The translations under genes were made by a program, and so were the position numbers. Positions 3,118-62,559 of a stretch of 64,000 bases of DNA are shown piece after piece. The first letter of the stretch is position 1; the number at the start of each line of letters is the position of its first letter. The notes beneath the pieces are model-generated. The model ran no database searches. It was not told the DNA's origin and saw only the letters and a program-made list of their open reading frames with translations. The DNA is taken from positions 62,001 through 126,000 of the forward strand of contig NZ_MRWE01000004.1 in the NCBI RefSeq assembly GCF_002093665.1, given 5' to 3'. This DNA is from Rouxiella badensis (lineage in GTDB: Bacteria > Pseudomonadota > Gammaproteobacteria > Enterobacterales > Enterobacteriaceae).

Positions 3118-3217
3118 ATGGCCTGAATTCCCTGCCCGGTTAGCAGGTTGCCCCCTACTCCGATAAAAAAACTTAAAAATGAGGCTTGAAGCGACGGGTT
3201 AATACGCGCATAATAAT

Positions 3218-3232
3218 TGTTATAGTATAACA
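3218..3232 (+). promoter_or_regulatory. Zur-type operator upstream of rpmE2
   Basis: Perfect 7-1-7 palindrome TGTTATA-G-TATAACA, 19 bases before the rpmE2 start. It matches the core of the known enterobacterial Zur box (a TGTTATANTATAACA-type palindrome). The arms are identical to those of the site at 6429-6443 in front of the zinc ABC operon. Expected action is zinc-dependent repression and derepression in zinc starvation; the site is seen directly, the regulation is inferred from the family. Confidence 0.85.
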
Positions 3233-3251
3233 TTACATTTTAGGATTTATT

Positions 3252-3506
3252 ATGAGAGAGAACATTCATCCTGCTTATCGCACCGTGGTTTTTCATGACA
3301 CCAGCGTTGATGAGTATTTCCACGTCGGCTCCACCATAAAGACCGACCGCACCATTGAACTGGAGGGCAAAACCTTCCCGTACGTGACGCTGGACATCTC
3401 CTCTGCTTCCCATCCGTATTACACCGGCAAGCAGAAAGAGTTCTCGAAAGAAGGCAGCACCGCGCGCTTCCAGCAGCGTTTCGGCAGCTTCCTCGGAAAA
3501 AAATAA
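3252..3506 (+). CDS. rpmE2: Zinc-independent ribosomal protein bL31B (YkgM)
   Basis: Type B paralogue of ribosomal protein L31, 84 residues. It opens like E. coli YkgM ([20 protein letters not shown]) and contains no cysteine, so it cannot form the zinc ribbon of the type A protein. In the known scheme it replaces the zinc-binding L31 on ribosomes when zinc is short, releasing zinc for other uses. It follows a Zur-type palindrome (3218-3232), has a TAGGA ribosome site at 3241-3245, and is followed 20 bases later by rpmJ2, so the two form a small operon. Confidence 0.95.
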
Positions 3507-3526
3507 GTTTGTTTTTGGAGGGATAA

Positions 3527-3667
3527 ATGCAGGTATTGAGTTCGTTAAAATCAGCAAAAAACAGGCACCCTGACTGCCGCATCGTGAAACGCAAGGGCAG
3601 ACTGTACGTGATTTGTAAAAGTAACCCGCGTTTTAAAGCCGTACAGGGCGGGAAGAAGAAACGCTGA
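3527..3667 (+). CDS. rpmJ2: Ribosomal protein bL36B (YkgO)
   Basis: A 46-residue type B paralogue of L36. The run [20 protein letters not shown] is the same as in E. coli YkgO. Type A L36 has a Cys3-His zinc ribbon; here only two cysteines remain (residues 17 and 30) and the other ligands are replaced, as expected for the zinc-free form. It has a strong GGAGG ribosome site (3517-3522) and sits 20 bases after rpmE2, sharing its Zur-type promoter. The C-terminus is highly basic (GGKKKR). Confidence 0.95.
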
Positions 3668-3702
3668 TCCTCAGCGTGGAATGAAAGCTTAGCCAGCCAT
3701 AA

Positions 3703-3734
3703 AAAAAGCCCCGTCGCTTGCCCGACGGGGCTTT
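3703..3734. terminator. Bidirectional terminator after rpmJ2
   Basis: Nine-bp stem GCCCCGTCG / CGACGGGGC with a 6-base loop. It is flanked by A7 on the left and TTT on the right, so it can end rpmE2-rpmJ2 on the + strand and, with a T7 tract, leftward transcription from the ABC operon. Confidence 0.8.
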
Positions 3735-3758
3735 GTTACGTCATAAAGAAGGGGAGAA

Positions 3759-3794
3759 TTACCTCCCCGTTGGCCATTGCCAGCGGGGAGGTAA
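3759..3794. repeat. Perfect 11-bp inverted repeat between rpmJ2 and the zinc-binding protein gene
   Basis: Arms TTACCTCCCCG (3759-3769) and CGGGGAGGTAA (3784-3794) are exact inverse complements. The 14-base loop itself contains a second small stem TGGC / GCCA. There is no T tract on either side, so it looks more like an mRNA-end stabiliser or a mobile palindromic unit than a classical terminator. Confidence 0.6.
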
Positions 3795-3799
3795 CGGAT

Positions 3800-4678
3800 T
3801 TATTTCATGCTGCCTACAATCGCTTCCACGTTGTGGGTGAAGGCTTTCTCATAGGTTGTTGCCGGGCCTTGCGGGCCAGAAAGTGATTCAGGATAAAGCT
3901 CGCCGCCAGGCTGTGCACCCGTGGCCGCAGCAATCTGTTTCACCAGACGCGGATCGGTCTGATTCTCGATGAAGTAGGTTTTCACCTTCTCGTCTTTAAT
4001 CTGCTTGATAAGTGAGGCAACGCCGCTGGCGCTAGCTTCCGACTCCGTCGAGAAGCCGACCGGTGCCAGGAAGGTCACGTTGTACTCTTTGCCGAAATAA
4101 CCAAAGGCATCGTGACTGGTGAGCACCTTACGTTTCGCGACCGGAATACCGCTGAACTCTTGCTTGGCCCAGGCATCCAGCTTCTTGAGCTGCTCGATGT
4201 ACGCACCGCCGTGCTGGCGATAGTAGTCGGCGTCTTCAGGGTCGGCGGCAATCAGCGCGTTCATCACGTTAGTGGCATAAATGACGCCGTTCGCCATGCT
4301 GTTCCAGGCGTGCGGATCGGTCACTGTCTTGCCCTCTTCGTCCATCTGGCGCGAGTCTACGCCCTGCGAGGCGACAACGACCTTGCCGTGATAGCCGGAG
4401 GCAGTGATCAGGCGATCCATCCAGCCTTCCATGCCCAATCCACTGACAAAGACGACGTCAGACGCGGCCAGCGACTTGCTGTCTCTCGGCGCAGGTTCAA
4501 AGCTGTGCGGATCGCCGTTTGGGCCGACCAGGCTGGTGACCTTAACGTGGTCTCCACCCACTTCCTTCACGATATCCCCAAGGATTGAGAAACTGGCGAC
4601 GGCATTAACCGTCTTGGCCATCGCCAGTGGGCTCGACAGCAGGGCAGCTACTGACAGAGCAACAGGTAAAAGTTTCAT
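3800..4678 (-). CDS. Zinc/manganese-type ABC transporter substrate-binding protein (ZnuA/AztC family)
   Basis: Periplasmic cluster A-I metal-binding protein of 292 residues. A signal peptide is visible (hydrophobic run ending AMA before KTVNAV). The metal-site motifs are GDPHSFEP (first His), TDPHAWNS (second His), SHDAFGYF (third His) and the late acidic motif NQTDPRLV. It lacks the long His/Asp-rich loop usual in ZnuA. The ATG at 4678 is chosen because AGGAG lies 7 bases before it; a GTG two codons upstream (4684) is the alternative. It is the last gene of the small peptide-ATPase-permease-binding protein operon behind a Zur-type box, which argues for zinc rather than manganese or iron as substrate. 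Confidence 0.88.
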   Translation of the reverse strand: MKLLPVALSVAALLSSPLAMAKTVNAVASFSILGDIVKEVGGDHVKVTSLVGPNGDPHSFEPAPRDSKSLAASDVVFVSGLGMEGWMDRLITASGYHGKVVVASQGVDSRQMDEEGKTVTDPHAWNSMANGVIYATNVMNALIAADPEDADYYRQHGGAYIEQLKKLDAWAKQEFSGIPVAKRKVLTSHDAFGYFGKEYNVTFLAPVGFSTESEASASGVASLIKQIKDEKVKTYFIENQTDPRLVKQIAAATGAQPGGELYPESLSGPQGPATTYEKAFTHNVEAIVGSMK

Positions 4679-4714
4679 TTCCACTCCTTTATAAGTACTT
4701 CTTTATTTTCACGA

Positions 4715-5572
4715 CTAACGTCGCGAGGCAGTCAACATCCCGCCGCGCGTTCCAAACAGAACCGAGATAAAGAAAATGACGTTGGCGCTGAGCACGATGG
4801 CTGGGCCAGCAGGCAGCGAGGCGTAGTAGGACCAGATGAGCCCGATAACGCTCGACAGCATGCCAATCAGCATGGCGATCAGCAGGGTGTGCGGTAAATC
4901 ACGCCCCCAGAAACGGGCACTGGCGGCGGGAAGCATCATCAGGCCTACCGACATCAGGGTTCCGAGAATTTGGAAACCGGCGACCAGATTCACCACCACC
5001 AAGGCCAAAAATATACCTTGGATAACCGCCAGCCACTTGCCCGAACTGACGCGTAGGAATAGCGCATCAAAGGACTCAATTACCAGCGCACGATAAATGC
5101 AGGCGAGGATGATCATCGACACGCTGCTGATAGAACCGACCATCAGCAGGGCGTGAGAATCGATGGCGAGTATTGAGCCAAATAGCACGTGGAGCAGGTC
5201 TACGCTGGAACCTTTAAGGGAAACCAGCGTGACGCCGAGCGCCAGAGAACCAAGATAGAAGCCGGCAAAGCTGGCGTCTTCTTTAAGCTGGGTGCGGCGG
5301 CTGACGACGCCGGAAAGCATGGCGACCGCCAGACCGGCAATAAAGCCGCCGACGCCCATTGCCACCAGCGACATACCGGAAATCAGATAGCCAATAGCGG
5401 CACCGGGCAGCACCGCGTGGCTGAGTGCGTCGCCGACCAGACTCATGCGGCGTAACAGCAGGAAAACGCCCAGCGGCGTCGCGCTAATGGACAACGCGAG
5501 GCAGGCAATCAGCGCACGGCGCATAAATCCAAATTGAACAAAGGGGTCGACTAACAGGTGGAACAACATCAT
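4715..5572 (-). CDS. Zinc-type ABC transporter permease (ABC-3 family)
   Basis: Integral membrane permease of the ABC-3 family (ZnuB/MntB/SitC relatives), about 285 residues with roughly eight hydrophobic segments. The family motif LVGDALSHAVLPG, the usual coupling segment, is present near residue 50. The start at 5572 overlaps the ATPase stop as ATGA, which fits translational coupling; a second ATG follows at once. Together with the ATPase (5569-6306) and binding protein (3800-4678) it makes a complete importer. An in-frame upstream extension is ignored because it lies within the ATPase gene. Confidence 0.88.
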   Translation of the reverse strand: MMLFHLLVDPFVQFGFMRRALIACLALSISATPLGVFLLLRRMSLVGDALSHAVLPGAAIGYLISGMSLVAMGVGGFIAGLAVAMLSGVVSRRTQLKEDASFAGFYLGSLALGVTLVSLKGSSVDLLHVLFGSILAIDSHALLMVGSISSVSMIILACIYRALVIESFDALFLRVSSGKWLAVIQGIFLALVVVNLVAGFQILGTLMSVGLMMLPAASARFWGRDLPHTLLIAMLIGMLSSVIGLIWSYYASLPAGPAIVLSANVIFFISVLFGTRGGMLTASRR

Positions 5573-6306
5573 GAGATGACTCTCCGCTGCTCGCTGAACT
5601 CGTCGGCCAGGATGCAGGCATGATCGCGATGGGGAAAATGGCACAGAACTTCGTCGGCCGTTCCCCAAATATTTTGCTGTTGGCTCAGGAACAGGACCTG
5701 AGGAAAATGACGCGCCACCATGGCGATGTCGTGCAGAACGGCGATCACCGTTTTCCCCTGCTCATGCCACTGGCGGATCACTTTTAAAAGCAGTTCGGTG
5801 GTCTGGCTGTCGATACCGGTGAAAGGCTCATCGAGCATGATGAGCGGCGCTTGCTGAATCAGCAGTCGCGCGAACAGCGTTCTTTGTAGCTGACCGCCGG
5901 AGAGCTCGCCGACCGCAAAGTTGCGCATCTCGCTCATCCCTACGGTTTGCAGCGCGTCAAGTACCTGACGCTCAGACTCACGGCTGATGCCACCAAACAG
6001 ACCACTCTGCGGCCAGCATCCCATTGCCACCAGGTCAAACACGCTGATAGGGAACTGTCGGTCCAGCTCGGCCTGCTGAGGGAGATAAGCCAGCTGCGGA
6101 CGTTTGTTTTTCGAAGAGGAGCCGCTGAATTCGATTGAACCAGAAATGGCCGGTTGCAAACCTGCGAGGGTCTTCAGGAAGGTCGACTTACCCGCGCCGT
6201 TGGCGCCGATAACCGCCGTCAATGAGCCTGCGACGATGCGTCCGCTCAACGGCATGGCAACCGGACGGCGTTCATAGCCCACTTCAAGCTTTGAAATGTT
6301 AATCAT
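5569..6306 (-). CDS. Zinc-type ABC transporter ATP-binding protein
   Basis: Cytoplasmic ATPase of the metal importer, 245 residues from MINISKLEVG. It has Walker A GANGAGKST, a Q-loop (LPQQAELDRQ), signature LSGGQLQR, Walker B LIMLDEPF and a switch histidine in VLHDI. The ATG at 6306 overlaps the stop of the 35-residue membrane peptide gene (ATGA), and the stop overlaps the permease start in the same way. The three cistrons are therefore probably translated as a coupled unit from one Zur-controlled message. Confidence 0.9.
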   Translation of the reverse strand: MINISKLEVGYERRPVAMPLSGRIVAGSLTAVIGANGAGKSTFLKTLAGLQPAISGSIEFSGSSSKNKRPQLAYLPQQAELDRQFPISVFDLVAMGCWPQSGLFGGISRESERQVLDALQTVGMSEMRNFAVGELSGGQLQRTLFARLLIQQAPLIMLDEPFTGIDSQTTELLLKVIRQWHEQGKTVIAVLHDIAMVARHFPQVLFLSQQQNIWGTADEVLCHFPHRDHACILADEFSEQRRVIS

Positions 6307-6410
6307 GGTAACGAGATGGCCCAGTAGATCCCTGACCACAAAATTGCTAATAAAATTAAAGCAATAGCACAGCGGGAGAAAGCAGAAAGGGTAAATAGCG
6401 TCTTAGTCAT
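6303..6410 (-). CDS. 35-residue membrane microprotein at the head of the zinc ABC operon
   Basis: Unrecognised short peptide. It begins MTKTLFTLSAFSRCAIAL and continues with a strongly hydrophobic, aromatic-rich run (LILLAILWSGIYW), enough for one transmembrane helix with a basic N-terminus, a layout that predicts an inner-membrane peptide with N-in topology. The stop TGA overlaps the ATPase ATG (ATGA), and the start lies 19 bases downstream of the Zur-type palindrome. It is therefore the first cistron of the operon. It may be an accessory subunit or simply a leader that couples translation. No close ribosome site of good quality is visible. Reality as a protein is inferred from position and composition. 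Confidence 0.6.
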   Translation of the reverse strand: MTKTLFTLSAFSRCAIALILLAILWSGIYWAISLP

Positions 6411-6428
6411 AATGGATTGCTCTAGAGA

Positions 6429-6443
6429 TGTTATAATATAACA
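6429..6443 (-). promoter_or_regulatory. Zur-type operator of the zinc ABC operon
   Basis: Perfect 7-1-7 palindrome TGTTATA-N-TATAACA with arms identical to the site before rpmE2. On the minus strand a TTGAAA (6461-6466) could serve as -35, which would put the palindrome over the -10 region, a normal place for repression by zinc-loaded Zur. Confidence 0.85.
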
Positions 6444-6735
6444 CCACATTTTGAACGATTTTTCAAGGTAGCAGGTTGTAATCATTCATAAACACGTTGA
6501 GTAAACTTCGCTCATTGATCTGGCTCCCAATTTGCAACATTGCTGTCATCATCCTCCGTCAGGAAAGCGTAATTAAATATTAAAAACACATGAAAATACT
6601 TTTAAATCATTATGTTAGTGAATTTTCTTCGCGGCAATTATTTTGCTCTCATTTCGCACATTAACTAAAAAATATGCAATAATTAATCCTGAAGGCTTTT
6701 GTTGCCAATAGCTCTTATGAAAATTGAAAGCATCT

Positions 6736-7089
6736 ATGAAAAAATTGATCCCTTGCGATACTCAGGGAAAAAAACCCGGCATTACGGAACTAAAGCAGAT
6801 AATAGAATCTAATATCGAAGTGATTGAAGACGCATTAACTGCGGGTTTAGGTTATTATTCCCCTAATGCTCGGTACACACCCGGTTCGCTGGTCATAAAA
6901 TCCATTGAGCACAGAAATAATCAATCTTATTCAATGACTTACACTTATGACTGGACCATCTTCAATGGTTGCCTTGATCTCAACTCAGCGGAAGACGCTA
7001 AAGAGTCCGTATCATTTCTTGTTAAACCCGAAGGATTGGAGTTTGATATAATAGATTTTGATTCGGCCACGACAGAGAATGAATTGTAA
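6736..7089 (+). CDS. Hypothetical protein, AT-rich orphan
   Basis: Not recognised. 117 residues from the ATG at 6736 (a TTG at 6724 is a less likely start); no strong ribosome site precedes it. The protein is soluble-looking and acidic overall, with a Tyr/Asn-rich middle (YSMTYTYDWTIFNG) and an acidic C-terminus (DIIDFDSATTENEL), and no signal peptide or membrane segment. Base use is clearly more AT-rich than the neighbouring transporter genes, and 250 bases of AT-rich intergenic DNA precede it, suggesting horizontal origin. Mixed alpha/beta small proteins of this look are common among immunity and accessory genes, but nothing visible proves such a role. Confidence 0.55.
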   Translation: MKKLIPCDTQGKKPGITELKQIIESNIEVIEDALTAGLGYYSPNARYTPGSLVIKSIEHRNNQSYSMTYTYDWTIFNGCLDLNSAEDAKESVSFLVKPEGLEFDIIDFDSATTENEL

Positions 7090-61995: not shown

Positions 61996-62559
61996 ATGAC
62001 TCCCTCTTATCGTGCCATTCTCGCCTTAACCGCCCTGTTCAGTTTGGCTGGATGTGCGGCGCAAAATCCTGAAGTATCGACCCTGACGACCGAAGTTAAT
62101 CAGCTGAATCAGAAACTTGATCGTCTGACCGATCTCGCGGGTGCGCTTGAGCATCAGACTACGCTCAATCGCCAGTCTACCAACGGTGTCTATTTGCTGC
62201 CGCAGGCCAAAACACCTGCCCTACTGAACACCGATTTTGCCCAACTGAGCCTTTCACTGGACTCGATTGCGCAAGACAGTACCGGCACCAGCGCTGTATT
62301 AAAAATTAAGTCTACCTCGGGCAAAGCGCTGCCTGCCTTCAGCGCCGTCGTCGACTGGGGTCAGATTGACCAGGTGACCGGCAAGCCGCTGACCGTCGAT
62401 ATGCAGTCTCAGGTTATTACCGTTACTCCGAGACTGCTTCCGTCGAGCGAGCAGACCACCGAAGTACGCTTTAGCAATATCACACCAGAAACGCTGGGAT
62501 TCGTTCACCTGCACCACCTGACGCTGATTCCAGAAGGCAATGCGGACGCCAAACCCTAA
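61996..62559 (+). CDS. yajI: YajI family lipoprotein (DUF3251)
   Basis: 187-residue lipoprotein of unknown function. Lipobox LAGC (Cys about residue 20), a short coiled-coil-like stretch with regular leucines (LTTEVNQLNQKLDRLTDL), then a beta-rich DUF3251-type domain. Same place as E. coli yajI, between nrdR and secF, with its own terminator. Confidence 0.88.
   Translation: MTPSYRAILALTALFSLAGCAAQNPEVSTLTTEVNQLNQKLDRLTDLAGALEHQTTLNRQSTNGVYLLPQAKTPALLNTDFAQLSLSLDSIAQDSTGTSAVLKIKSTSGKALPAFSAVVDWGQIDQVTGKPLTVDMQSQVITVTPRLLPSSEQTTEVRFSNITPETLGFVHLHHLTLIPEGNADAKP

Follow-up and report, generated by a model that had tools for sequence, protein, structure and literature searches.

A predicted zinc-starvation island in Rouxiella badensis joins type B ribosomal protein genes to a ZniCBA-type importer operon headed by a conserved microprotein gene

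Importers of the ZniCBA type have been described in Klebsiella pneumoniae and Rhizobium leguminosarum, with low-zinc induction or Zur-dependence reported (PMC10797113, PMC12183173), and the gene pairs ykgM-rpmJ2 of Yersinia pestis and ykgM-ykgO of Escherichia coli encode type B ribosomal proteins, the Y. pestis pair behind a footprinted Zur box (PMC2706843). In the genome of Rouxiella badensis (NCBI RefSeq assembly GCF_002093665.1), counterparts of both systems stand side by side: on contig NZ_MRWE01000004.1, within a window of 64,000 nucleotides (the whole stretch of DNA analysed, positions 62,001 to 126,000 of the forward strand; coordinates below are positions in this window), an rpmE2-rpmJ2 operon and a zinc-type ABC importer operon converge inside a block bounded by two exact TGTTATA-N-TATAACA palindromes (3218-3232 and 6429-6443). 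The importer resembles ZniCBA in its binding protein (PDB 8svc) and in its gene order; unlike the block described here, the Klebsiella- and Enterobacter-type zni loci are flanked by mltB and pncC, and no rpmE2-rpmJ2 is annotated there (PMC10797113). The ribosomal gene pair is the same as in Y. pestis and E. coli, whereas in E. coli K-12 no importer adjoins ykgM-ykgO, and the available text of the Y. pestis paper mentions none beside ykgM (PMC2706843). For all three importer proteins the nearest NCBIfam models are those of AztABCD from Paracoccus denitrificans, from which the island differs by scoring under all three equivalog cut-offs and by the lack of a fourth large gene in its operon.

The best explanation overall, to which we assign a probability of roughly 0.85, is that the block is a two-operon zinc-starvation island whose importer includes a proposed microprotein subunit. 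On its left side a putative Zur box, TGTTATAGTATAACA (3218..3232, exact motif match), has a 15-base core that begins 34 nt ahead of the rpmE2 start codon, and the box ends 19 nt 5' of that codon. The rpmE2 (ykgM) gene (3252..3506, plus strand) encodes an 84-aa type B ribosomal protein L31 (NF002462, 119.8 bits, cut-off 86) with zero cysteines, a second L31 being encoded elsewhere in the same genome, and is followed by rpmJ2 (ykgO; 3527..3667, plus strand), coding for a 46-aa type B ribosomal protein L36 (NF002021, 90.5 bits, cut-off 70). On the right side the second putative box, TGTTATAATATAACA (6429..6443, exact motif match), stands 18 nt before the first importer gene. This operon runs on the minus strand through a 35-aa microprotein gene (6303..6410), a zniC-type ABC ATPase of 245 aa (5569..6306; PF00005, 94.5 bits), a zniB-type permease of 285 aa (4715..5572; PF00950, 174.7 bits) and a zniA-type zinc substrate-binding protein of 292 aa (3800..4678; PF01297). 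The original prediction, made from the letters of the window, had described two palindromes with the same arms, one heading each operon, and both are exact. Its four-gene ABC operon is correct only if the ORF at 6303-6410 is counted, for which, as a gene, the evidence is strong, and its zinc-type importer is indeed of a zinc type, namely ZniCBA and not canonical ZnuACB, a distinction that it missed. The contrast that it drew with E. coli K-12 agrees with that genome, in which acrB has tomB as its annotated neighbour and is separated from ykgM-ykgO by about 168 kb.

According to the proposed mechanism, in the presence of zinc Zn-bound Zur would occupy both palindromes and block transcription; as zinc falls, Zur would leave and both operons would be expressed together. 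RpmE2 and RpmJ2 would then take over from the zinc-binding L31 and L36 in ribosomes, and the backup ZniCBA-type importer would bring in zinc. The fourth importer subunit, a 35-aa membrane protein for which we propose the name ZniS, would be translated first and be coupled to the ATPase; its helix may bind the permease/ATPase core and aid zinc handling on the cytoplasmic side. In many other bacteria the N-terminal end, which is probably cytoplasmic, bears a run rich in histidines that is likely to bind zinc.

The most unusual part of the island is the microprotein gene with which the importer operon begins. It encodes MTKTLFTLSAFSRCAIALILLAILWSGIYWAISLP, predicted to form a single helix, and its TGA overlaps the ATG of the ATPase gene (ATGA). 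Comparison was made across 103 loci, comprising the window, 20 further relatives, 80 named loci (the best 80 of 578 confirmed stretches, a choice that favours close relatives) and 2 annotated records, with two loci (L048 and L072) sharing a contig. An ORF ending at the ATPase start was found in 102 of them, the offset of its stop being +1 in 91, -2 in 9, -3 in 1 and -8 in 1. Over the last 30 codons, 31 non-overlapping close pairs gave a ratio of nonsynonymous to synonymous change (dN/dS) of 0.153 (Fisher p 2.6e-70), as against 0.85 and 2.84 when the same DNA is read in its other two frames, and the differences at the three codon positions numbered 118, 41 and 249. Residues R12 and W29 are invariant across 39 diverse sequences, and a 19-residue stretch with a hydropathy of at least 1.6 is present in 102 of 102 (2.27 in the window protein). 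An ATG start giving 30-55 aa is available in 95 of the 102, and the N side is the more positive end in 86; the pattern suggests a cytoplasmic N-terminus (N-in). Thus the features by which the proposed family is defined, a single hydrophobic stretch, a stop at the ATPase start and protein-level constraint, are found together, and judging from the sequences the ORF is almost certainly translated into a true protein. Single-helix proteins of fewer than about 50 aa that are encoded with, or act on, a transporter or membrane enzyme include AcrZ, KdpF and CydX; the microprotein is like them in size and in its one helix, whereas no Pfam or NCBIfam model links it to them and the histidine-rich, probably metal-linked tails of its family set it apart.

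No Pfam or NCBIfam family matched the microprotein above cut-off, and the weak matches that the histidine-rich tails gave below threshold, among them ZrgA, a nickel/cobalt efflux and a ZnuA model, seem to reflect composition. Two RefSeq E. coli records leave the gene unannotated, one of them drawing the ATPase with an earlier start that crosses the microprotein ORF in another frame, and in a Klebsiella aerogenes record it appears as VDZ62730.1, "Uncharacterised protein"; the plasmid gene tables are incomplete and carry no weight as evidence. In the open-licence literature no paper describing the microprotein was found. The terms "small protein", "open reading frame" and "hypothetical" are absent from the main texts of PMC10797113 and PMC12183173 and from the available portion of the AztABCD paper (PMC7731109). 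A K. pneumoniae locus does carry the microprotein ORF. In R. leguminosarum zniC has its Zur motif 153 bp upstream, against 41 bp for znuA (PMC12183173). Since the distance from box to ATPase is 114-173 nt in the 80 named loci, the 153-bp gap leaves room for the ORF, the presence of which would explain the difference from znuA. The microprotein is widely conserved and, as far as found in the open-licence literature, undescribed.

Within the family, 198 genomes were searched, of which 84 have a match at E <=1e-60 and 82 were counted as importer genomes at E <=8e-112 (left out were G012, G076 and six weaker second matches). A microprotein profile of 39 rows, 9 of them from genomes searched, was run over the same 198 genomes and gave 88 matches at E<1e-3. 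Seventy-nine of these share the strand of the binding protein, begin the operon 1520-1639 nt ahead of it and fall in 79 of the 82 importer genomes; in two of the three genomes missed (G093 and G169) a weaker match stands at the expected position. Among the nine matches located elsewhere, five (G068, G164, G159, G142, G203) precede a zni-type ATPase, with no permease match seen in G142, and the other four (G162, G123, G158, G091) sit in frames of 128-166 aa. In G164, G159, G203 and G067, the last with a weaker match, the microprotein is accompanied by ATPase and permease, with no ZniA-type protein in the fetched stretch; G159, G203 and G067 are on contigs of 0.69-0.76 Mb, and on contigs of 0.63 Mb (G118) and 0.83 Mb (G157) all four genes are kept. 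The small-genome carriers are taken from their size to be symbionts. Retention of the microprotein with the ATPase and the permease in loci that show no ZniA-type protein nearby makes the membrane core a likelier partner than the binding protein. Reduced genomes that keep these three genes without a ZniA-type protein in the fetched stretch (L202, L203, L204, L205) carry a Zur-like box at 1-2 mismatches.

Outside the family, a phylum set of 398 genomes yielded 76 listed binding-protein places, all 76 of which were fetched, and a same-strand ATPase match was present in 61, in an order that is not always ATPase-first. A profile built from the 102 family loci only matched in 41 of these 61 at E <=3 (23 at E<0.01), the matched ORFs ending -45 to +6 nt of the ATPase start. 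In all, 68 ORFs end near the ATPase start, and of the rest of the 4021 ORFs scanned a single one reaches E 3. Alphaproteobacterial carriers include Neorhizobium (L176) and Bartonella (L178). The N-terminal part, read from the first ATG within 90 codons or else at fixed length, holds at least 5 histidines in 18 of the 41 and up to 18 (e.g., L232, L248, L273, L258). Histidine makes up 222 of 1387 N-terminal residues in these outside loci; the count falls to 17 and 33 when the other two frames are read, and in the 102 loci of the family-type set it is 62 of 1834. In one genus the N-terminal part is constrained (ratio of nonsynonymous to synonymous differences, pN/pS, 0.19; 6 loci, 15 non-independent pairs). 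The histidine-rich N-terminal tails are predicted to bind metal, probably zinc, and suggest zinc contact on the cytoplasmic side. A trade-off of histidines between the microprotein and the loop of the binding protein was also considered and gave no significant difference (p 0.21, 0.18).

The microprotein is probably a subunit or regulator of the importer core, and the chances that it is a helper of transport may be put at about even. A different explanation holds that the small ORF serves as a leader or for coupling, delivering ribosomes to the ATPase start or sensing something, its peptide being inert. The position of its stop, in overlap with the start of the ATPase gene in 91 of the 102 loci and 2 to 8 nt ahead of it in the other 11, would suit such a function, as would the short distance from box to ORF; but the protein-level constraint, the two invariant residues, the hydrophobic stretch common to all 102 sequences and the histidine-rich tails, with histidines far rarer in the other frames, argue for a selected product and make an inert peptide unlikely. 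The main rival to the helper role is that of an inhibitor or assembly factor, for example one exerting trans-inhibition at high cytoplasmic zinc via the histidine-rich tail. It draws on the histidine-rich N-termini on the predicted cytoplasmic side and on the encoding of the microprotein together with the importer, but the versions in the family, that of the window included, have few histidines there, and a helper explains no less well why very small genomes keep the gene; we regard inhibition or assembly as a doubtful alternative.

The identity of the importer itself follows from its binding protein, the best solved structure for which is 8svc, K. pneumoniae ZniA (E 2.4e-122). The ligands of ZniA are His58, His123, His189 and Glu264 (PMC10797113), and here H58, H123, H189 and E264 occur at identical numbers, in columns that are invariant in an alignment of 15. 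The set of three histidines and one glutamate is combined with a loop that is not histidine-rich and with the gene order ATPase, permease, binding protein, with overlaps, the order being read from the genes alone. The NCBIfam equivalog models of AztABC (AztA 203.9 < 220, AztB 251.6 < 280, AztC 265 < 350) and of canonical ZnuACB (ZnuA 59.9 < 268, ZnuB 88.8 < 284) were rejected. Because the 8svc ligands are kept and the Azt and Znu models remain below cut-off, the importer is, on sequence grounds, classed as a ZniCBA relative, not as AztABC or ZnuACB.

In K. pneumoniae ZniA may handle manganese as well as zinc, and its loss alone had no growth effect (PMC10797113); in two species double mutants of znuA and zniA or zniCBA were impaired at limiting zinc, whereas zni single mutants were not (PMC10797113, PMC12183173). 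We expect with high confidence that the Zni operon of R. badensis imports zinc. An importer chiefly for manganese or iron, with incidental Zur boxes, is very improbable: K. pneumoniae expressing ZniA from a plasmid gained manganese (PMC10797113) and the binding protein also matches manganese MntC-type NCBIfam models below cut-off, but the zinc ligand set of ZniA is kept, a Zur box is found in 79 of 80 loci and the double importer mutants of two species are defective under zinc limitation.

Control by Zur was considered at the level of the boxes, the genome and other species. The gammaproteobacterial Zur box consensus is AATGTTATAWTATAACATT (PMC2706843), and both 15-base cores fit it exactly save for the free central base, the outer bases of the 19-mer differing at few places. 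In the window the palindrome is matched at <=3 mismatches by just the two boxes, with a chance mean of 0.82; the count by itself says little, and the exactness of both is what counts. In the whole genome (4,777,790 bases) the exact places listed are 3, two of them the island boxes. Loose matches carry no meaning, because the genome shows no enrichment of the motif at <=3 mismatches, with 83 forward matches against 103 for the reversed control. Across the 80 named loci the box at the importer promoter shows 0, 1, 2 and 3 mismatches in 10, 45, 24 and 1 loci, respectively, hence <=2 in 79 of 80, and across the 62 with rpmE2 within 3.5 kb the box at the rpmE2 promoter shows them in 48, 7, 6 and 1, hence <=2 in 61 of 62; both boxes are found at this level in 61 of the 62 paired named loci. 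Of 1436 random 200-bp control stretches from the same loci, none reaches 2 mismatches and 2 reach 3. The distance from the rpmE2 box to the start codon is 16 to 22 nt across loci. Chance AT-rich palindromes, for which only the abundance of loose matches speaks, can be dismissed in view of the exactness of the two boxes, their near-fixed distance from the start codon and their conservation against these controls.

Zur is encoded in the genome (L153; NF008646, 313.6 bits, cut-off 167). Eight genomic sites match at <=2 mismatches, the two island boxes and six others, four of which adjoin zinc-type genes: ZigA (NF038288) and ZinT (NF007639), each scoring over its cut-off, an operon with a PF01297 binding protein, and a DUF1007-NicO pair assigned by Pfam alone. 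This last pair (G000:C63:90043, L069), behind a Zur-like box with 2 mismatches, presumably has a role in zinc and resembles the ZevAB zinc system. Of the remaining two sites, one is found between cysS and ppiB and the other ahead of a further ORF. The former is an exact Zur-like box between the divergent genes (G000:C48:20833-20847), 41 kb before the window start, and recurs exactly at the same place in two genomes of the same genus (G002, G003). The gene cysS codes for cysteinyl-tRNA synthetase, a zinc enzyme, and zinc regulation of cysS or ppiB would be unusual. In Y. pestis, Zur represses ykgM-rpmJ2 as demonstrated by gel shift, footprint and reporter, with a 19-base box at -34 to -16 (PMC2706843), and in R. 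leguminosarum mutation of zur relieves repression of the zniCBA promoter (PMC12183173). Since Zur is present, the boxes are conserved and Zur acts on both operon types in other species, joint control of the two operons here, as claimed in the original prediction, is strongly inferred, and a Zur-controlled two-operon island is very likely.

The same prediction had proposed a search for the pairing in other genomes, which turned out to be widespread. All 5 other genomes of the same genus that were searched (L044-L048) carry the same block, the contig of L046 stopping before tomB. Of the 82 importer genomes of the family, 29 have rpmE2 within 3 kb of the importer and on the other strand, 43 have it elsewhere and 10 gave no rpmE2; of the 80 named loci 62 are paired, all 62 convergently. 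Among these 62, acrB turned up in 59, tomB in 61 and a match to the 121-aa ORF that precedes tomB in R. badensis in 57; a contig end cuts some loci short, and acrB of several Yersinia is a few kb further off. Paired loci occur in Rahnella, Ewingella, Hafnia psychrotolerans, Serratia, several Yersinia, Pantoea, Erwinia, Chimaeribacter and Izhakiella, and the importer without adjoining rpmE2 in loci of Pectobacterium, Cedecea, Mangrovibacter, Sodalis and Franconibacter and likewise in those of the Klebsiella type. These loci rule out an island peculiar to this genome, and a recent mobile insertion is unsupported given the shared flanks, no search for mobile genes at the ends having been made. 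In the open-licence literature no paper describing the pairing was found. On a tree of 92 permease-plus-binding-protein rows, a quick tree that carries a long-branch warning, the paired and unpaired states need 3 changes against a shuffled mean of 23.5. One old origin is favoured because the place between acrB and tomB is shared. The original prediction had recognised two zinc strategies in one block, and had missed the wide spread of the pairing, the ZniCBA type of the importer and the microprotein. As a separate observation, in a few E. coli (L156, L180) a Zni-type operon with the microprotein ORF adjoins a haemolysin operon; 23 of 5426 E. coli genomes gave any match to the importer query, with at least 11 of the matches listed reaching 65% cover.

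Several observations weigh against this reading of the island and its microprotein. Expression and Zur binding in this genome rest on inference. One locus of the 103, the distant paralogue L063, lacks the microprotein; in G182 the 16 nt between the box and the ATPase match indicate that the gene is absent at that locus; and 20 of the 61 outside loci are without it, so it is not universal. The N side is not the more positive end in 16 of the 102 microproteins, and in L044, of the same genus, the matches before rpmE2 all have 2 mismatches. As 53 of the 82 importer genomes have no adjoining rpmE2, the pairing is not needed for function. A single origin of the pairing is not decided by the tree, in which, at equal costs, the 3 changes correspond to two gains plus a loss; a history with a single gain would require three losses and cost 4.

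The surroundings of the island comprise acrB on the left, part of the gene being inside the window, and, on the right, the 121-aa ORF (6724-7086) followed by tomB (NF007948). This ORF matches no Pfam or NCBIfam family above cut-off, yet it recurs in most of the paired named loci, as counted above. The gap between the convergent operons (3705..3794) holds two terminator-like hairpins, at 3705-3734 (minus strand) and 3759-3794 (plus strand), and the first palindrome overlaps a promoter-like -10 at 3221-3226; these features come from the pattern scan alone, which for the region gave 12 terminator-like sites, where 4.5 are expected, and 2 promoter-like sites against 2.1 by chance.

The island sets two answers to zinc shortage, the release of ribosomal zinc and import, side by side, both behind one kind of box, in several enterobacterial families. 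Of greater consequence is the microprotein, as zinc ABC importers are described as a binding protein, a permease and an ATPase. With a slight balance in its favour, we propose that Zni/Azt-type importers across much of Pseudomonadota may have an overlooked, translationally coupled fourth subunit, a single-helix microprotein that would receive or gate zinc at the inner mouth of the permease and that in many lineages has a long histidine-rich tail, predicted to be cytoplasmic. Its role is soon testable, because mutants and a ZniA structure exist. If the proposal is true, a conserved coupled subunit with a metal-binding tail would mean that zinc ABC importers are not three-part machines in these bacteria.

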